A stretch of DNA of 64,000 nt, taken from assembly GCF_014205175.1 (NCBI RefSeq), contig NZ_JACHNA010000001.1, positions 2,170,001-2,234,000 of the forward strand. The letters run 5' to 3'. The stretch is from Micrococcus cohnii. GTDB taxonomy: Bacteria > Actinomycetota > Actinomycetes > Actinomycetales > Micrococcaceae. A program made the position numbers and the translations under genes. Positions 7,754-26,573 of the stretch are shown piece after piece (within the stretch, counting starts at the first letter, position 1; each line of letters begins with the position of its first letter). The notes under the pieces were generated by a model. That model had not been told where the DNA came from, did no database searches, and worked only from the letters and a program-made list of their open reading frames with translations.

Positions 7754-8536
7754 GTGAAGATCATGGTGCTGGCCAAGCAGGTCCCGGACACCTGGCAGGA
7801 GCGCACGCTCGACATGGAGACCGGGATGCTGGTGCGTGACGGCGCTGCCGAGCCCGTCCCGGACGAGATCAGCGAGCGCGTCATGGAGATCGCCCTGCAG
7901 CACCGCGACGCCGGCGCCGACGCGGAGATCGTCGCCATGACGATGGGCCCCGAGGACTCCTCGAAGACCCTGCGCAAGATGCTCGCGATGGGGGCGGACT
8001 CGGCCGTGCAGATCACCGACGACGCGCTCGCCGGCTCGGACGCGGTGCAGACCGCGCGCGTGCTGGCCGCGGCGATCGAGCGGGAGGGCGCCGACCTGGT
8101 GCTGGCCGGCAATCTCGCCACGGACGGCAACTCGGGCGTCGTGCCGGCCATGGTGGCCGAGCTGCTGGACCGCCCCTATCTGCCGCAGGCCGAGGACGTG
8201 CAGATCACCGAGTCCGAGATCGTCGGCACGATCGTGACCGAGGACGCCGATGTGCGTGCCGCCGCGCCGGTGCCGGCCGTCGCCTCGCTGACCGAGAAGA
8301 CCCCGGAGCCGCGCTTCCCGAACTTCAAGAACATCATGGCCGCCAAGAAGAAGACGATCACCGTGCATTCGCTGGCGGATCTGGGCATCGTGGCCGGCCC
8401 CATCGAGGCCGAATACCGGTCCGTGATGGTCTCGGCGAACGCCCGTCCGGAGAAGGAAGCCGGCCCCAAGGTCGTCGACGACGGGACGGCGGCCGAGCAG
8501 CTGGCCGACTTCCTGGCCGAGAACCGCCTGATCTGA
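7754..8536 (+). CDS. etfB: Electron transfer flavoprotein beta subunit
   Basis: This 260-residue protein is the usual length for EtfB. It begins with the conserved KIMVLAKQVPDTW and contains SERVMEIALQHRDAGA and the AMTMGPEDSSKTLRKMLAMG nucleotide-binding region. LVLAGNLATDGNSGVVPAM fits the adenosine/AMP-binding loop. With EtfA it forms the soluble FAD-containing carrier that takes electrons from acyl-CoA dehydrogenases and passes them to the quinone pool. The GTG at 7754 is chosen because GAGGAG lies 6-8 nt upstream and the protein then begins as in its relatives. It is the first gene of an apparent operon etfB-etfA-cytochrome b-hydrolase with gaps of about 30 bp. Confidence 0.95.
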   Translation: MKIMVLAKQVPDTWQERTLDMETGMLVRDGAAEPVPDEISERVMEIALQHRDAGADAEIVAMTMGPEDSSKTLRKMLAMGADSAVQITDDALAGSDAVQTARVLAAAIEREGADLVLAGNLATDGNSGVVPAMVAELLDRPYLPQAEDVQITESEIVGTIVTEDADVRAAAPVPAVASLTEKTPEPRFPNFKNIMAAKKKTITVHSLADLGIVAGPIEAEYRSVMVSANARPEKEAGPKVVDDGTAAEQLADFLAENRLI

Positions 8537-18529: not shown

Positions 18530-18700
18530 GCGGCGGGGCGTGTGGCCGCGTCGGCGTCGCCCCGGCCCCTCCGTCGGGCGCAAGGGCTCGTTCGCTAGGA
18601 TGGGCCACCGGTGCGCGGCCCTGGTCGTCACGCTCCGCGATCGGACGCCCCCTCGCTACGGCGTCTGACACAATTTGTCCGCCCACGTCAGGATCTCCGA

Positions 18701-19525
18701 ATGACCCACGTCGCCGCCCGCGCCCGCGTCCCGAAGAAGGCGCTCATCGTGTTCGCCGTCGTGGCCGCGATCATGCTGGGTCTGGCGGCCGTGTCCGTCG
18801 TGCGGGGGATCGTGCATGAGAGCCGGCGGATGCAGGTCGTGGAGGTCCTCGACGGCAACACCGTCGTCGTGGACGCGAACGGCGAGCACAAGACCGTGAA
18901 GATGGCCGGGGTCCAGTCCTCGATCCGCAACCCCGACGGGCTGCGGGGAGGGCCGAACATGTGCCTGGGGGAGAAGTCCCACGGCTGGCTGCGCGACCGC
19001 CTCGTGCAGGGCGCCACCGCCGAGGTGGACCTGGAGGAGGGCGAGGACGGGCAGCAGTACGCCACCTTCCACCTCGCGGGCAAGGACGTGAACACGTCGA
19101 TGGCCGAGGCGGGCATGGCGGCGCCCACCGACACGGGCGTGGACGACGCGACGGCCAGTCAGATCGACGAGGCCAACGAGCTGGCCCGAAGCACCGGTGC
19201 GGGGCTCTATGACGTCGAGGAGAGCTGCACCTACAACAGCATGCTCTTCGAAGCGGAGTACAAGCTCGACTCGATCCCGGAGAAGACGGACAACACCGTC
19301 AAGGCGCTCGACAAACGCTCCCGCGAGGTGGCCGAGGCGGTCGACGAGATCCGTCTGATCCAGGAGGACGTCGAAGCGCTCGAGAAGGACGGCGGCGACT
19401 TTGAGGACCTCGCCTGGCATCCGGCCAAGGAGGACTTGAAGCAGAAGGCCGACGAGGCGGCCGAGAAGGGTCTGCAGCGTCTGCGCGAGCTCAACGACCG
19501 GCGAAACCAGATCACCGCCGGCTGA
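18701..19525 (+). CDS. Membrane-anchored protein with a degenerate SNase-like domain and coiled coil
   Basis: The protein has 274 residues. A single membrane segment (about 13-36) is followed by a domain (about 44-142) that reads like a staphylococcal-nuclease fold: VVEVLDGNTVVVDANG, then VKMAGV, EKSHGWLRDRLVQGATAEV and GKDVNTSMAEAGMAAPT. The catalytic positions are not kept. The usual DGDT is DGNT, the Arg of VRLxGID is Lys67, the Asp/Glu after it are absent, and the DxYGR arginine is missing in DGQQYATF. The last 110 residues are charged and helical (coiled coil). I infer a non-catalytic surface domain. AGGA precedes the ATG at 18701. An in-frame GTG at 18611 behind TAGGAT is an alternative start. 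Confidence 0.6.
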   Translation: MTHVAARARVPKKALIVFAVVAAIMLGLAAVSVVRGIVHESRRMQVVEVLDGNTVVVDANGEHKTVKMAGVQSSIRNPDGLRGGPNMCLGEKSHGWLRDRLVQGATAEVDLEEGEDGQQYATFHLAGKDVNTSMAEAGMAAPTDTGVDDATASQIDEANELARSTGAGLYDVEESCTYNSMLFEAEYKLDSIPEKTDNTVKALDKRSREVAEAVDEIRLIQEDVEALEKDGGDFEDLAWHPAKEDLKQKADEAAEKGLQRLRELNDRRNQITAG

Positions 19526-19597: not shown

Positions 19598-20275
19598 TCA
19601 GTCGAGCGAGAGGGTCACCAGACGCAGCTGCGCTGCACGGATGATCGCCTGGACGCGGTCGCGCACCTCGAGCTTCTCCATCGCCCGCGTCAGGGCCGCC
19701 TTCACGGTGGACTCCGACAGGTGCAGGCTCTGGGCGATCTCGGTGTTCGACTGCCCCCGGGCCAGCAGGGCGAGCACCTCGAGCTCGCGTTCGGTCAGGT
19801 CGGAACCGTCCGGGGCGCCCGCGTCCGTCGGCGGGCCAGCGGGCTCGTCTTCCGCGATCGCGGTGAGCAGCTGCTGCGTCACGGCGGGGGAGAGCACCGA
19901 TTCGCCGCGCCGGACCGCGCGGATTCCGTGGATGATCGTCGCGGGGGCCGCGTCCTTGAGCAGATACCCGGCGGCTCCGGCGCGCAGGGCCGGGACGACG
20001 TAGTTCTCCGAGGTGAACGTGGTGATCGCCAGAACGCGCGTCGACGGCGATTCAGCGGTGATGCGCCCCGTGGCCTGCACGCCGTCCATGACGGGCATCT
20101 GCATGTCCATCAGCACGACGTCGGGCTGGGTGGCGAGGCAGCTCTCGACGCCCTCGGCGCCGTTGGCGGCCACGCCGATACAGGTCATGCCCGGCGCCGA
20201 GTCGATCAGCGTGCGCAGTGCTCCGCTCATGAGCGGCTGGTCGTCCACGATCAGTACGCGAAGATCTTCAGTCAC
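19598..20275 (-). CDS. NarL/LuxR-family response regulator
   Basis: The protein has 225 residues. The receiver domain (about 5-120) has the acidic pair Asp11-Asp12, the phospho-acceptor Asp57 in VVLMDMQMP, and the conserved Lys in GYLLKD. A LuxR-type helix-turn-helix follows (LTERELEVLALLARGQSNTE, then LHLSESTVKAALTRAMEKL). It should bind DNA as a dimer after phosphorylation by the divergent kinase at 20649-21995. The GTG at 20275 has TAGACT 6 nt upstream and no Shine-Dalgarno, so the message is probably leaderless. The kinase and regulator are separated by a small secreted-peptide gene, not by the usual direct overlap. Confidence 0.92.
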   Translation of the reverse strand: MTEDLRVLIVDDQPLMSGALRTLIDSAPGMTCIGVAANGAEGVESCLATQPDVVLMDMQMPVMDGVQATGRITAESPSTRVLAITTFTSENYVVPALRAGAAGYLLKDAAPATIIHGIRAVRRGESVLSPAVTQQLLTAIAEDEPAGPPTDAGAPDGSDLTERELEVLALLARGQSNTEIAQSLHLSESTVKAALTRAMEKLEVRDRVQAIIRAAQLRLVTLSLD

Positions 20276-20391
20276 CGCGGCAGTCTATAAGGCGGCTCAC
20301 GTCCACGCGGAGGATCGAAGGCCCGCGTGATGGTTCGTGACGTGCCGAGGGTGGGCCCGCCACAGGCCTGACGCGGGAGCGATATCACCTA

Positions 20392-20439
20392 TTGGCGCAC
20401 AGTGAGGCCTGCCGCATAATGGTGATCATGACTGATCAC
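20392..20439 (+). promoter_or_regulatory. Strong leaderless promoter with overlapping 7-bp inverted repeat
   Basis: TTGGCG (20392-20397), a 17-bp spacer and CATAAT (20415-20420) form the clearest sigma-A promoter in the window. Seven nt later comes the ATG at 20428, so transcription should begin at or next to the start codon. A perfect inverted repeat GTGATCA-TGAC-TGATCAC (20422-20439) covers the start site. Paired 7-mers are the style of site bound by NarL-type regulators, so this may be an autoregulatory operator. That link is an inference. Confidence 0.55.
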
Positions 20440-20652
20440 ACTCGCACCCGTACCGTGGCCGCCGTCGGTGCGCTGCTGCTGTCCCTCTGCACCGTCTCCG
20501 CACCCGCCGCCTCGGCCGTGCCGGCCACCGCTCCGGCCACCTCCGCCTCCGTGTCCTCGGCGGAGCAGGTCGCCACTCCCGCCGGCTGGGGCGCCGGTGT
20601 CCGCGACCAGATCTGCAAGCACCTGGGCCTCTACTGCGACTTCGGGAGGTGA
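20428..20652 (+). CDS. Small secreted peptide precursor, possible signalling peptide
   Basis: This gene encodes 74 residues. A basic start (MTDHTRTRT) is followed by a hydrophobic core (VAAVGALLLSLCTV) and an Ala-X-Ala-rich cleavage region (SAPAASAVPATA), a standard Sec signal peptide. The mature part ends TPAGWGAGVRDQICKHLGLYCDFGR, with two cysteines seven residues apart that could form a loop. The gene overlaps the kinase start by 4 nt (GTGA), so the two are translationally coupled. I do not recognise a family. Size, export signal and coupling to a sensor kinase suggest a self-produced ligand, but a small exported regulator of the kinase is equally open. The start at 20428 follows from the promoter spacing. 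Confidence 0.6.
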   Translation: MTDHTRTRTVAAVGALLLSLCTVSAPAASAVPATAPATSASVSSAEQVATPAGWGAGVRDQICKHLGLYCDFGR

Positions 20653-21995
20653 CCCCGAGGCCTCCGCGGCCCCTGCCCCGATCGGGGTGGGGGCCGTCGT
20701 CGTCCGCACAGGGTTTCGACGGCGTCGAGCCCGGCCCGACGGCGTGGCAGCGCCGATGGCGTGCCGTGTGGCAGTCCCGGGACTTCAGCCCCTGGTACCT
20801 GGGCATCGTCACGGTGCTGGCCTTCGTTTCCGTCGGCTCCGACCTCTGGGTGTTCGAGCAGGAAAGCGGACTCCAGCTCGGGGCGGACGGCCTGCTCATG
20901 TACGCGTTCGTGCTCGTCGCGTACTCGCTGCAGTGGTTCTCGAGCACGCTCGCCTTCGCGAGCCTGGTGCCGATGTTCGCCCTCACATTCGCCGGCGTCG
21001 AGGCCCTCGTGCTGGTCGTCTACGGTCCGGTGATCCTGGGCGGCGTCGTCGCGACGGCCAACCGGCGGTTCGCGGCCACCGCCGCCGGACTGACGCTGGC
21101 CTGGAGCATCTCCTACCCCTTCGCGGCGAGCGCGCACCTCAGCGATGCGGAGGCCTACAACGCGGCCTGGTTCTCCGTGGTGCTGGTCGTCCTGGGCGGC
21201 GGGGCAGGCCTGTTCGTGCGCCTGAACCTGGCACGGCGGGACGCCGACCAGGCGCGACTGGCCGAAGCCCGGCGGCAGGCCCGGGAATCCGCCGCGCGGG
21301 AGCGCCGTGTGTTGGCCCGGGACCTGCACGACATCCTGGCCCACAACCTCACGATCATCACGATGCAGGCCTCGACCGCCCAGTTCGTCGGCACGGGCGA
21401 GGCGGCCCAGAAGGCGCTGGCCGTCGTGGACGAATCGGCGCAGGACGCGCTCGTGGACCTGCGCCGAATGCTCGCGCTGATGCGGGAGGAGGGCGTCGTG
21501 GAGGTCGGCGACGAGGCGGTGCAGGAACGGGGCATGGCGCCGGCCCCGTCCGTGGACCTCGAACTGGGCGTGGCCCGATTCGTGCACGGGCTGGAGGACC
21601 TCGGGTTCCCGGTGGAGCGCCGCTGGGGCCTGGCCGACAGCAAGGTGCCGCTCAGTGTGGAGGGCACAGTCTACCGGGTGCTGCAGGAGGCGGTCACGAA
21701 CGTCGTCAAACACGGAGACCCGGCACACCCGTGCCTGATCGACGTGCATCTGGACGAGGGCGACCTGGTGCTCGTCGTCGAGAACGGGGTGCTGGCGCGG
21801 GAGCCGGAGAAGGACCGGCGGCACCGGCGCCTGGGGCGTGACCGGCAGAGGTGGAACTCCTCCAGCGTGGGGCTGACGAGCATGCGGGAGCGGGTCTCGG
21901 CGTTCGACGGCACGGTCACGGCGGGGCCGGTGGGGGACGACCGGTGGCGGGTGTACGCCCGCGTTCCGGTGCGCTTCTCGGCCGATGAGACGTGA
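20649..21995 (+). CDS. NarL-type sensor histidine kinase (HisKA_3)
   Basis: The protein has 448 residues. Residues 48-195 contain four to six membrane helices with very short loops and no large extracellular domain. This resembles actinobacterial DesK/LiaS-like kinases. The dimerisation domain has the phospho-acceptor His227 in RDLHDILAHNLT, with LVDLRRMLALMRE after it. The HATPase_c domain shows the N box around Asn351 (LQEAVTNVVKHG) and the G box SSVGLTSMRERV. It should phosphorylate the divergent regulator. The annotated GTG at 20649 overlaps the peptide gene's stop codon. The first 45 residues are low in conservation signals, so a later start is possible. Confidence 0.9.
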   Translation: MTPRPPRPLPRSGWGPSSSAQGFDGVEPGPTAWQRRWRAVWQSRDFSPWYLGIVTVLAFVSVGSDLWVFEQESGLQLGADGLLMYAFVLVAYSLQWFSSTLAFASLVPMFALTFAGVEALVLVVYGPVILGGVVATANRRFAATAAGLTLAWSISYPFAASAHLSDAEAYNAAWFSVVLVVLGGGAGLFVRLNLARRDADQARLAEARRQARESAARERRVLARDLHDILAHNLTIITMQASTAQFVGTGEAAQKALAVVDESAQDALVDLRRMLALMREEGVVEVGDEAVQERGMAPAPSVDLELGVARFVHGLEDLGFPVERRWGLADSKVPLSVEGTVYRVLQEAVTNVVKHGDPAHPCLIDVHLDEGDLVLVVENGVLAREPEKDRRHRRLGRDRQRWNSSSVGLTSMRERVSAFDGTVTAGPVGDDRWRVYARVPVRFSADET

Positions 21996-22152
21996 TGCGC
22001 GATACTTTCGGACGGCCTGATCGGCCGAAGGTCCAGTGTCGGCGGAGGGGACGGTCGCTCTACAGTTGACGAGTGCTCCATGAGACGGTGCGCAGTGCAT
22101 GATGATCCGGCGGCAGGCCCCCGTGGGGATGCGGGAGGGCCGCCGTGGATCG

Positions 22153-22190
22153 ACGAGAGGCGACGGGCCGCACGGCCCGTCGCCTCTCGT
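22153..22190. terminator. Strong hairpin between convergent genes
   Basis: A perfect 18-bp inverted repeat (22153-22170 and 22173-22190) lies between the end of the kinase gene and the end of the gene at 22236. It can act for both directions. Upstream of it (22061-22110) a TACAGT hexamer is followed 6 nt later by GTG and a nine-codon ORF. This could be a short transcript ending at this hairpin, but the evidence is thin. Confidence 0.7.
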
Positions 22191-22235: not shown

Positions 22236-22733
22236 TCAGTCGGCCGGGTCGGGCTCTGTCCCGGCTGGCTCGACGACGCGGGTGAACGGTTGCGCCGCGG
22301 TGCGGCCCAGGGCCATGAGGATGCCCGCGGGGAAGCCGATCACCGGGATGAGCATCGGCAGCACGCCGCCGACACCCTGGGTCAGGACGACCAGACCGAA
22401 CAGCATGCCCACCAGCGCGTAGCCGAGGACGTGCACCCACTGGTTCAGGACGTGGCGGAACGCCCAGTTCACCAGCAGACACAGAGGTAGGCCCACGACG
22501 AGCGCCGCGATGCCCACCACGACCAGCAGCGGAGTCAGTGTGCCGTAGACCTGCAGCTCGGGGATCATCGCGAGCACCATGACGATCGCCGCCATGATCA
22601 GGTTCGGCAGCAGCCAGGCCAGCAGGAATCCGTAGAGGCTCATGCGCAGGCGAGGGCGTCGGGCGGCGGCCTCGCGGCGACGGGCCTGACGGCGTGCGCG
22701 GGTGGTGCTCTTGACCGGTGCGGGGGTCGTCAT
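22236..22733 (-). CDS. Hypothetical four-helix membrane protein
   Basis: The protein has 165 residues. After a very basic tail (about 30 residues, RARRQARRREAAARRPRLR) come four hydrophobic segments: SLYGFLLAWLLPNLIMAAIV, LTPLLVVVGIAALVVGLPLC, VHVLGYALVGMLFGLVVL and VLPMLIPVIGFPAGILMAL. I do not recognise a family. The start at 22733 lies 4 nt after the stop of the next gene upstream, so it is translated with it. The basic amino terminus predicts cytoplasmic placement of both ends. Confidence 0.6.
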   Translation of the reverse strand: MTTPAPVKSTTRARRQARRREAAARRPRLRMSLYGFLLAWLLPNLIMAAIVMVLAMIPELQVYGTLTPLLVVVGIAALVVGLPLCLLVNWAFRHVLNQWVHVLGYALVGMLFGLVVLTQGVGGVLPMLIPVIGFPAGILMALGRTAAQPFTRVVEPAGTEPDPAD

Positions 22734-22737
22734 GCGC

Positions 22738-23811
22738 TCAGCTCCGTCCCGTGCTGTCGACGTGGAAGGCCAGCCCGTCGACGGCGGGCCAGGCCAGCAG
22801 CGACTGCAGGGCGTCCCAGGCATCCGGGTCCTGGGCGTCGACCGGTTCGATCGCCAGGGCACCCAGCTCGCCGTCGATCACGCGCAGCGTCACCTCGAAC
22901 TCGGCGCCATCGGAGGTGAATCGGCCGCGGACCGGCCACGTCGCGTCGTTGGGGACGGCATGATCCACCGGCTGGTCTGTGTCGACGACGATCGGCAGCC
23001 AGTCCGCGACCTCATCGTCCTCGGGGTCGCCCAGCGCGGCGGCGGAGGTCTTCGCGTGCGGCAGCTGGGCGCGCAGAGCGGCGGCGCCGGGCAGGACCGT
23101 GCCGTCGAACAGCGCGGGATCCAACAGCGTGTCCAGCAGGATGCGGGCCTCGACGGGCAGCTCGACCAGATCCTGCTCCAGATCCTCGAGGTCCTGGGGC
23201 TGGGCGTCGGCCAGCAGCGCGGTCAGATTCGCCTCGGTCCGCGCGCGTCGCGCGTCGCGGTTTGCCACGAGCAGGGCGACGGCGCTGACGCCGGCCAGCA
23301 GCAGCCGCGGGGCGGGGACGCCCCAGCGGGTGAGGGCCTGCGTGATCGTCGCGTCCACGCGGTCGTTCAGGCCGGCGCCCTTCAGGGTGAGCGCGCCGGC
23401 GCCGACACCCGCGCCGAGACCGAGCAGGGTACGGCCGACCACACCGACCAGGCCGCGGCCACGGCCGGAGGCCAGCGACGCGGTCCGGGCCGCGGAGGCG
23501 GTCTCGGCGGCGGCGTAGACGCCCGTGAAACCGGCGAGAACGCGGTGCAGGCCGGTGCGCTCGAGGTCGTTCAGCTCGCGCGGGTCCACGAGGGTCAGGC
23601 CGGCGGCGGCCGCCGCAGCGAGGACGCCGTAGAGCCGGCCGCCGGGGGCGAGCGCAGCCGGGCGGAGGCCGGACAGGTCGGCCTCGTCGGTCAGGGGTGC
23701 CTCGGGGAACACGCCGAACTCGTGGTGACGGGCGGATGCGCCCGGGAGCGAGGGGAAAGTCATGGCCCCATTGTGGGGCATGAAGCTGGCCGTCGGCTCG
23801 GTCTGCACCAT
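22738..23811 (-). CDS. Hypothetical protein with central hydrophobic segments
   Basis: The protein has about 357 residues. Residues 50-125 are alanine-rich and partly hydrophobic. GLVGVVGRTLLGLGAGVGAG and RLLLAGVSAVALLVA are probable membrane-associated helices. The last third (from about 215) looks soluble and acidic, with VDGELGALAIEPVDAQDPDAWDALQ near the end. I do not recognise it. I chose the ATG at 23811 because GAGGG lies 4 nt upstream and the gap to the preceding amidohydrolase gene is only 7 nt. The ATG at 23763 is an alternative. It appears to form an operon with the amidohydrolase and the small membrane protein. Confidence 0.5.
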   Translation of the reverse strand: MVQTEPTASFMPHNGAMTFPSLPGASARHHEFGVFPEAPLTDEADLSGLRPAALAPGGRLYGVLAAAAAAGLTLVDPRELNDLERTGLHRVLAGFTGVYAAAETASAARTASLASGRGRGLVGVVGRTLLGLGAGVGAGALTLKGAGLNDRVDATITQALTRWGVPAPRLLLAGVSAVALLVANRDARRARTEANLTALLADAQPQDLEDLEQDLVELPVEARILLDTLLDPALFDGTVLPGAAALRAQLPHAKTSAAALGDPEDDEVADWLPIVVDTDQPVDHAVPNDATWPVRGRFTSDGAEFEVTLRVIDGELGALAIEPVDAQDPDAWDALQSLLAWPAVDGLAFHVDSTGRS

Positions 23812-25507: not shown

Positions 25508-25661
25508 TGGTCGTGTCGGGACGGGGCGGTCCCGCGCGGCCACTCGGTGAAGGTCATGATCGTGATCCAAGGAGCGTGTGCAGGGTGCTGTGCCGGAGCC
25601 ATCGGTGGGTCACCGGGCTCGGATAGTGTCGGACTCGAACGGTGCTACGGGGGTGCGGAAC

Positions 25662-26573
25662 ATGGCAGTAACGGGGATGTCCACGAACGACGGCGCGGTC
25701 GGAGTCGCCCAGCTCAGCCACGCGTTCGGCGGCAAGGACGTGCTGAGTGACGTGTCGTTCCGAGCCGAACCGGGGCACGTCACGGCCTTGCTGGGGGCCA
25801 ACGGCGCCGGCAAGACCACCCTGTTCAAGTGCATCGCGGGACTCGTCCGGCCAGATGCGGGCAGAGTGTTCTCTCCCGCCATGAGCCTGCGATCAGGACA
25901 GCCGCCCGCCCAGCACATCGGCTTCGCGCTCGACGCCACCGCGTTGCACCCCGGACGCAGCGTTCGCGAGACCCTCCGCCTGGCGACGATCCTCGCCGGT
26001 GTGGGACGAGACCGGGTCGGCCCCATGCTGGACCGCGTCGGCTTGAGACGCGAAGGACGCAAGCGCGTCGGGGCCCTGTCCCTGGGCATGCGACAACGCC
26101 TGGCCCTCTGGGTGGCCCTGATCGGCGACCCCCGCGCCCTCGTCCTGGATGAGCCCGCCAACGGCCTCGACGCCTACGGCACGGCATGGGTCCACGACAC
26201 CATCCGCTCCGCAGCCGAGTCCGGTGCGGCCGTACTCATCTCCAGCCACCTGCTGCGCGACGTCGAGGTCGTGGCCGACCACCTGGTCGTGATCGACCGG
26301 GGCCGAGTCGTCTCGGACGGGGCCGCCGACGACCTGCTCCGGCTGCGAGGAACCCACGTGGCCGCCGCCGACCCGGACGCCCTCACTCGTGCACTCACCG
26401 CGCGAGGAATGCAACACACCTGGTCCGCAGAGACGGCGACGGTGCAGGCCTCGCCCGAAGCCGTCGGTCAGGCCGCGCTCGAGGCGGGCGTGCCCTTGCT
26501 CCATCTGAGCCAGGCCCGCACCGACCTGCAGGAGCTGTTCATGTCCATGACGACCGACCGGAAGGACGGATGA
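25662..26573 (+). CDS. ABC transporter ATP-binding protein
   Basis: The protein has 303 residues. Walker A is GANGAGKT (45-52), the signature is LSLGMRQRLAL, and Walker B is ALVLDEPANGLDA, followed by the switch histidine in ISSHLL. The order matches the CcmA/NatA-type exporters that pair with a separate permease of the ABC-2 kind. The next gene overlaps by 4 nt and is that permease. The transported substrate is unknown. Starts at 25662 and 25677 are both possible; the first ATG follows a weak GGGGGTGCGG. Confidence 0.88.
   Translation: MAVTGMSTNDGAVGVAQLSHAFGGKDVLSDVSFRAEPGHVTALLGANGAGKTTLFKCIAGLVRPDAGRVFSPAMSLRSGQPPAQHIGFALDATALHPGRSVRETLRLATILAGVGRDRVGPMLDRVGLRREGRKRVGALSLGMRQRLALWVALIGDPRALVLDEPANGLDAYGTAWVHDTIRSAAESGAAVLISSHLLRDVEVVADHLVVIDRGRVVSDGAADDLLRLRGTHVAAADPDALTRALTARGMQHTWSAETATVQASPEAVGQAALEAGVPLLHLSQARTDLQELFMSMTTDRKDG

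Follow-up and report, generated by a model that had tools for sequence, protein, structure and literature searches.

Conserved coupling of a secreted-type two-cysteine peptide gene with a NarL-type two-component system in Micrococcus and its relatives

We analysed a 64,000-nucleotide (nt) stretch of DNA from Micrococcus cohnii (hereafter the window; positions 2170001–2234000 of the 2.28-Mb genome, G000), wherein a short gene for a secreted-type peptide precursor lies between a response regulator gene and a sensor kinase gene. The regulator gene (19598–20275, minus strand) encodes a NarL/FixJ response regulator of 225 amino acids, identified by its translation and by Pfam matches to a receiver domain (Response_reg, E 4.5e-26, 91.6 bits) and a LuxR-type helix-turn-helix domain (GerE, E 4.2e-19, 68.4 bits). 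Divergent from it, on the plus strand, are the 74-amino acid precursor gene (20428–20652) and the gene for a 448-amino acid HisKA_3 (NarX/DesK-type) sensor kinase with a GTG start (20649–21995; HisKA_3, E 8.7e-14, 52.3 bits against a cut-off of 24; HATPase_c, 29.9 bits against 26.4), which overlaps the precursor open reading frame (ORF) by 4 nt. An original prediction had placed the regulator, the ORF with Cys63 and Cys70, and the overlapping kinase at these coordinates, all of which are correct in the sequence. The precursor gene is recognized by its translation, family alignments, profile searches, and the ratio of nonsynonymous to synonymous substitution rates (dN/dS) in relatives. These data support reading it as a conserved gene for a two-cysteine peptide of secreted type that is coupled with a NarL-type two-component system.

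The precursor (MTDHTRTRTVAAVGALLLSLCTVSAPAASAVPATAPATSASVSSAEQVATPAGWGAGVRDQICKHLGLYCDFGR) appears by eye to carry a Sec-type signal, likely cut after Ala30, and its C-terminus reads PAGWG..Q-I-C63-KHLGLY-C70-DFGR. The original prediction knew of no family for such a peptide, and indeed neither Pfam (no match up to E 1) nor NCBIfam (one match at E 0.2, far below the cut-off) covers it. Searches of Protein Data Bank sequences and of plasmids with the peptide likewise yielded no match.

The same kind of ORF is present at the orthologous kinase loci of three relatives, and these sequences together with that of the window formed a first profile (A1, four peptides). This profile matches 44 of 295 genomes of the family at E < 1e-3 (152 at E ≤ 1, many of them surely by chance), and all 44 loci, each of which was fetched, carry a homologous kinase and regulator adjoining the match. 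Relatives thus do possess the signal-peptide ORF with a Cys-x6-Cys end that had been proposed to precede homologous kinases, and the ORF is kept in frame beside them. Two weaker matches, L110 (E 0.018) and L112 (E 0.0017), have neither kinase nor regulator. With kinase starts picked by rule, the kinase begins between 16 nt before and 125 nt after the peptide stop codon. Among 50 peptides matched to their DNA (the start of L039 is mis-set), the predicted ring is mostly Cys-x6-Cys, as in CKHLGLYC of the window, CRHFGIWC of Micrococcus luteus, CRNLGALC of Paeniglutamicibacter, and CKNYGISC of Glutamicibacter; five residues separate the cysteines in L104 and L044, and seven in L043. The L043 ORF (genome G033), which ends at 8526 and has a signal-like start, is located not 5′ of the kinase but about 1.5 kb past it, following a regulator gene, and is either a rearranged relative or unrelated.

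Residue conservation was counted over 45 loci, for which Cys-x6-Cys was the selection rule and from which L034, L043, L044, L104, and loci with duplicate kinases were dropped. A Gly ten positions before the first Cys is invariant (45/45), the loop Gly is present in 43 of 45, and a Trp two positions before the first Cys in 37 of 45. Conservation sits in the C-terminal 20 residues, the mature end, which is the outcome of the comparison of the last residues with the remainder that the original prediction had called for. The codon-substitution pattern, named there as a second check, is protein-like in two genera: using the NG86 method on pairs with dS of 0.1–2, the median dN/dS is 0.12 for Paeniglutamicibacter (66 pairs) and 0.16 for Glutamicibacter (62 pairs). 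Values are higher where linkers align poorly, with a median of 0.73 in three close Micrococcus pairs and single-pair values of 0.58 in Micrococcus and 0.47 in the Citricoccus group. Comparison therefore establishes the gene family, its coding nature, and its linkage to the kinase and regulator at the level of sequence. Genera are designated here as Micrococcus (g1), the Citricoccus group (g4, comprising Micrococcus terreus and a Citricoccus), Nesterenkonia (g13), Paeniglutamicibacter (g22), and Glutamicibacter (g23).

To define taxonomic reach, named genomes were surveyed with a kinase profile, and the best 80 of 528 loci were scanned for a signal-peptide-like ORF of 45–115 amino acids that ends in a Cys pair and immediately precedes the kinase gene in the same orientation. 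Such an ORF is present in 14 of these 80 loci, namely in 14 of 18 Micrococcaceae and 0 of 62 others (family membership being assigned by genus name), and Cys-pair ORFs of this type occur only three times elsewhere in the same loci on both strands. The carriers include Kocuria marina (CHYWPVLC) and Kocuria varians (CGYFPYLC), and Nesterenkonia loci L117, L118, and L162 have looser ORF matches. The position of the regulator was recorded in 10 of the 80 loci: it is divergent in seven (five with the peptide; Nesterenkonia L120 and L123 without) and lies downstream on the same strand, with no peptide, in the other three (Sinomonas, Actinotalea, and Actinomadura). A further profile (A2) gave E ≤ 0.01 in 135 of 396 genomes of the order; the three matches below 1e-15 are family members (G032, G000, and G006), and the next best is 1.2e-4. 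The matches outside the family were rejected, as the rows read (not all inspected singly) match mostly the signal-peptide part, many of them in long frames. Hence no convincing profile match to the peptide was found outside the family among these 396 genomes.

The kinase had been described as having multiple membrane helices and no large sensing domain, and this description holds. Hydropathy indicates five membrane segments, and an AlphaFold model built from 34 homologues (mean pLDDT 84) has six helices between residues 48 and ~190, followed by a long signalling helix and a DesK-like core, with no extracellular domain. The nearest solved kinase core is that of DesK of Bacillus (5iuk, E 2e-9, a match only to cytoplasmic constructs), although DesK is not known to have a peptide partner. 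Pairwise distances of the peptide correlate with those of the sensor part (r 0.80) and of the catalytic domain (r 0.84). When the catalytic domain is taken into account, the partial r between peptide and sensor is 0.71 in Paeniglutamicibacter (0 of 1000 permutations) and 0.33 in Micrococcus/Citricoccus (p 0.015), so that co-divergence of the two is suggestive in these two groups only. In Paeniglutamicibacter, the mean distance is 0.44 for the sensor versus 0.20 for the catalytic part.

Upstream of the peptide gene is the predicted promoter TTGGCG-17-CATAAT (20392–20420, plus strand), whose −10 element ends 7 nt 5′ of the ATG, and the peptide transcript in the window is therefore probably leaderless. 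By eye, several relatives have −10-like sequences at a similar place. The original prediction ranked this promoter as the strongest in the window; on both strands of the 64 kb, with at least four of six matches in the −35 element and a spacing of 16–18, it is one of only two hexamer pairs that reach 9 of 12 consensus matches, and so it shares that rank. The 7-bp inverted repeat proposed as the regulator site, GTGATCA-TGAC-TGATCAC at 20422–20439, does exist and spans the peptide start codon. However, an inverted repeat of at least 7 bp at this place occurs in only 1 of 50 peptide loci, that of the window, and this repeat is therefore not supported as the regulator-binding site. As a separate observation, most of the Glutamicibacter loci L045 and L076–L093 have a conserved TTGACTT...TTATTC-like sequence in the 41–49 nt before the kinase ATG, perhaps a second, leaderless kinase promoter, with inverted ACTTCAC/GTGAAGT arms in some loci.

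A candidate small RNA (22073–22188, plus strand), recognized by alignment, consensus fold, and covariance model, lies within a conserved element (22061–22189) between the kinase gene and a convergent gene (22236–22862); its 5′ end is placed from a −10-like element, TACAGT (22061–22066, plus strand), seen in the sequence and the alignment. Twelve Micrococcus and Citricoccus-group loci aligned 3′ of the kinase have in common a terminator-like hairpin and two blocks that are almost free of variation, CCCCATGAGACGGTGC and GGGGATGCGGG. The consensus fold comprises two short hairpins, a 5′ one (GTGC-TCC..GG-TGCGC) and a second with a loop around GGGGATG, plus the terminator (22155–22188 in the window). 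Compensatory changes are seen at 11 of 23 pairs, all in the terminator hairpin, and the two 5′ hairpins hardly vary. A coding gene was considered and rejected, given that, among the 12 sequences, L031, L032, L033, and L034 have no ATG and block spacing differs by lengths that break the frame. A search of window positions 18–24 kb against Rfam 15 gave one match up to E 1 (MIR8008, opposite strand, E 0.25, far below the gathering score), and eight relative loci gave none.

A covariance model (R1) built from the 12 aligned sequences produced 26 matches at E ≤ 5e-10 in 17 of 197 family genomes, with the next best at 4e-5 and with filters strict enough that weak matches may be lost. Twelve of these matches, including that of the window genome (4.6e-17), had gone into building the model, and the 14 independent matches are all in the Citricoccus group. 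The carriers are nine Micrococcus genomes with one copy each and eight Citricoccus-group genomes, seven of which have two to four copies; Micrococcus G008 and G010 have no match. Nine Citricoccus-group copies are distal to the kinase; six of these fall into two recurrent gene neighbourhoods, and the remainder lie in other places. These comparisons identify a conserved, predicted non-coding RNA element directly behind the kinase in Micrococcus and Citricoccus.

Ahead of this RNA is a candidate regulator box with the core GGCC-GAAG-GTCC (22016–22041, plus strand), positioned 66 nt before the GAGACGG of the RNA. In all 18 boxes, which were picked by eye, as well as in the window, the box lies 64–66 nt before GAGACGG, and it precedes eight of the nine distal copies (L261–L268). 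For eight proximal/distal promoter pairs from the same genome, identity is 67% in the box, 41% in the spacer to the −10 element, and 22% in upstream DNA. Box and spacing emerge as conserved from comparison. The window box has a position weight matrix score of 5.2 and ranks 10 among 127,950 window positions, and we regard 22016–22041 as a better operator candidate than 20422–20439. The weight matrix, built from the RNA boxes, was also run on 50 peptide promoters, with p values taken against mononucleotide shuffles. The top site falls at exactly −56 from the ATG on the plus strand, rank 1 of 124, in L040, L077 (g27), L103, L105, L106, and L109 (g22), which count as three lineages because L105, L106, and L109 are close relatives. 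By a post hoc calculation, the chance of two further lineages repeating both position and strand is ~1e-5 to 1e-4. In L095 the best plus-strand site is at −57 and scores poorly. If peptide mRNAs are taken as leaderless and the RNA start is assumed to be ~8 nt before GAGACGG, the boxes of both promoter classes would be centred near −43, a usual activator position. The recognition helix reads TVKTHMAKIF in Glutamicibacter, which lacks the box, versus TVKANLTRIM, TVKAHLSRVM, and SVKLYLSRAM in box carriers.

Note that a genome-wide search of 19 genomes with up to three mismatches found fewer matches to the box pattern than to the reversed pattern in all 19, and additional targets are therefore not named. 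Among the matches listed, the six with 0–1 mismatches are all small RNA boxes, which themselves shaped the pattern, and those with two mismatches are mixed; the window's own box was not recovered at three mismatches. A second element, the palindrome TGTGA-N6-TCACA, which we take to be a CRP-type site, lies 90–92 nt before GAGACGG in 16 of 17 kinase-linked RNA promoters (13 perfect, three with one mismatch). It is absent from the window RNA promoter, the one exception, and from the eight distal copies examined. Loci L032 and L270–L274 are among those with this palindrome upstream of the small RNA.

Based on these findings, we consider it reasonably probable that the locus specifies a self-contained peptide-signalling two-component system of Micrococcaceae, composed of a loop peptide ligand, a kinase, a NarL-type regulator, and an output that is the small RNA or the system's own operon. 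The precursor would be exported by Sec and then trimmed. Its last ~20 residues would terminate in a loop of eight residues, Cys-x2-(aromatic or Leu)-Gly-x2-Cys, which probably closes as a disulfide ring and may be the ligand recognized by the neighbouring six-helix kinase. This kinase would phosphorylate the divergent regulator, which in turn could activate promoters that carry the inverted-repeat box, whose consensus is AAGTCTGGAC-AAAG-GTCCACTA and whose centre lies near −43. For Micrococcus and Citricoccus, the putative direct output would be the small RNA behind the kinase, joined in the Citricoccus group by its distal copies, and a CRP-type site would usually act on it as well. For genus g27 and some members of Paeniglutamicibacter, the peptide–kinase operon would itself be among the outputs. 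Accordingly worded, the original suggestion of an autoinducing circuit is borne out in part: autoinduction is indicated in those last two groups and, since no box precedes the Micrococcus peptide gene, is not indicated in Micrococcus.

Several observations weigh against this account. The window's own box is weak and the window has no CRP-type site. Only six of 50 peptide promoters carry the box at −56, their one-site p values range from 0.0005 to 0.057, and the best sites of L043, L076, and L081 lie elsewhere and score above the weakest of the six; among the 50 promoters scanned, those from Micrococcus, the Citricoccus group, and Glutamicibacter are without the box. No good box precedes L269, the ninth distal RNA copy. 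This copy (G090:C1:1571876-1577000) is the fourth and most diverged in one Citricoccus-group genome (E 4.8e-10), retains GAGACGGTGC, and is possibly decayed. Four of the 18 Micrococcaceae kinase loci have no ORF by the scan rule (Nesterenkonia L120, L121, and L123, and Sinomonas L138), and the partial r given the catalytic domain is 0.07 overall (p 0.12) and 0.16 in Glutamicibacter (p 0.12). Finally, a contiguous stretch of ~2.6 kb with regulator, peptide, kinase, and RNA is absent from Micrococcus G008 and G010, and because it is a single block this absence tells nothing about function and was not counted as evidence.

Among other explanations, the box could belong to a different regulator and the small RNA could be a neighbour rather than an output. 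The boxless peptide promoters of the three groups just named fit such an arrangement, yet the same box in nearly the same register precedes peptide genes of other genera in three lineages, and strong RNA-model matches occur only in the two genera with an RNA copy behind the kinase. We consider this unlikely. The peptide might instead act locally as an accessory subunit of the kinase and not as a cell-to-cell signal; it could be, for example, a cofactor that senses redox state or the envelope through opening and closing of its cysteine pair. Tight kinase linkage and a Cys pair suit a private partner equally well, and a streptomycete secreted protein is described as acting with a two-component system (HbpS–SenS–SenR, PMC4991794). 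Nevertheless, the variable residues in a mostly fixed-size ring (CKHLGLYC, CRHFGIWC, CERWGMFC, CRNLGALC) suggest ligand specificity, and the fast divergence of the Paeniglutamicibacter sensor looks more like ligand specificity as well, which leaves a subunit role rather unlikely.

Small secreted Cys-containing peptides are often antimicrobial, and the peptide could accordingly be the output, either antimicrobial or envelope-active, with the kinase sensing something else or sensing the peptide for immunity. The box before the peptide gene in some genera means that the peptide can be a target, and a gene for an ATP-binding cassette (ABC) transporter ATPase (25578–26573, plus strand; PF00005) lies 3.6 kb past the kinase. 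However, a search of 15 relative loci, each spanning 8.8 to 13.3 kb, found this gene close to the system in none of 14, nor was it present in the M. luteus stretch L285; in L040, an ABC gene located 3.6 kb past the kinase is just 30% identical. The position of the peptide gene 5′ of the kinase on the same strand and the absence of a peptidase C39 exporter from all six genomes searched also argue against this idea, which we hold to be improbable. That the small ORF is a leader that couples or attenuates kinase translation, as its 4-nt overlap in the window might suggest, is very improbable, because most loci have gaps of 6 to 125 nt (kinase starts by rule) and because the C-terminal sequence is conserved with dN/dS of 0.12–0.16.

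The proposed peptide-signalling system resembles known circuits only in part. Like ComQXPA of Bacillus, the locus has a peptide gene directly before a multi-helix HisKA_3 kinase that is paired with a NarL-type regulator, but it differs in its Sec-type signal, its Cys-x6-Cys end in place of a prenylated Trp, and its divergent regulator; no ComQ-like gene was noticed among neighbouring ORFs of the window, where no profile search for ComQ was made. AgrBDCA–RNAIII of Staphylococcus likewise has a ring-forming peptide end, a six-helix kinase without a sensor domain, and a regulatory RNA output, which is a possibility here. Unlike Agr, the present locus has a NarL-type regulator and HisKA_3 kinase rather than LytTR and HPK10, Sec-type export, and two cysteines rather than a thiolactone. 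AgrB (PF04647) was found in none of six genomes, in a search whose sensitivity is unproven given one below-cut-off match in 14 control genomes, and the peptidase C39 exporter (PF03412) was found in 0 of 6 genomes and in 8 of 14 controls. By the features tested, then, this predicted system is neither Agr nor a double-glycine system of the ComCDE or Blp type. HbpS–SenS–SenR of Streptomyces also joins a secreted protein to a two-component system in an actinobacterium, except that HbpS is described as a secreted protein in redox stress signalling (PMC4991794) and the present product is a short two-cysteine-loop peptide. No description of the system was recognized in the literature searched, which excludes most subscription journals.

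If the reading is true, these genomes would encode a disulfide-loop signal that is exported by Sec, varies in its loop from species to species, and has a small RNA as its output. This would be an apparently undescribed cell-to-cell signalling circuit in Micrococcus relatives, resembling ComX–ComP–ComA and Agr with an RNA output. We tentatively go further and propose, as a possibility short of probable, a dedicated peptide quorum-sensing system of Actinomycetota that would run without export or processing enzymes of its own. Its regulator would directly control essentially a single target, the small RNA, at which the cyclic AMP–CRP state would be read as well; for M. luteus, such a system might provide competence with its missing density input or feed another density response. 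M. luteus has the peptide, kinase, regulator, and small RNA and is naturally transformable, making the competence idea directly testable. According to a 2026 report, nothing so far points to a signalling peptide or two-component system that induces competence in this species, and the upstream signal is unknown; the report also argues against a single secreted-signal threshold (PMC12849477). An earlier screen implicated a different two-component system, Mlut_14100/14110, with published mutations C1063999T and G1064341A in clpX and G1541663A in Mlut_14110. In the relative G005 of the window's genus, a ClpX gene and a response regulator occupy these published coordinates, in keeping with the naming of genus g1 as Micrococcus; the present locus is not listed in the parts of the screen's mutant tables covered, which do not include all of Table 3 (PMC8467076). 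The link to competence is thus a proposal only.

The block is flanked on its 5′ side by a nuclease-like gene (18611–19525). The gene convergent to the kinase, for which a DUF2798 label had been considered, has no Pfam match. In Micrococcus G008 and G010, the next gene after the nuclease-like gene is the counterpart of this convergent gene.

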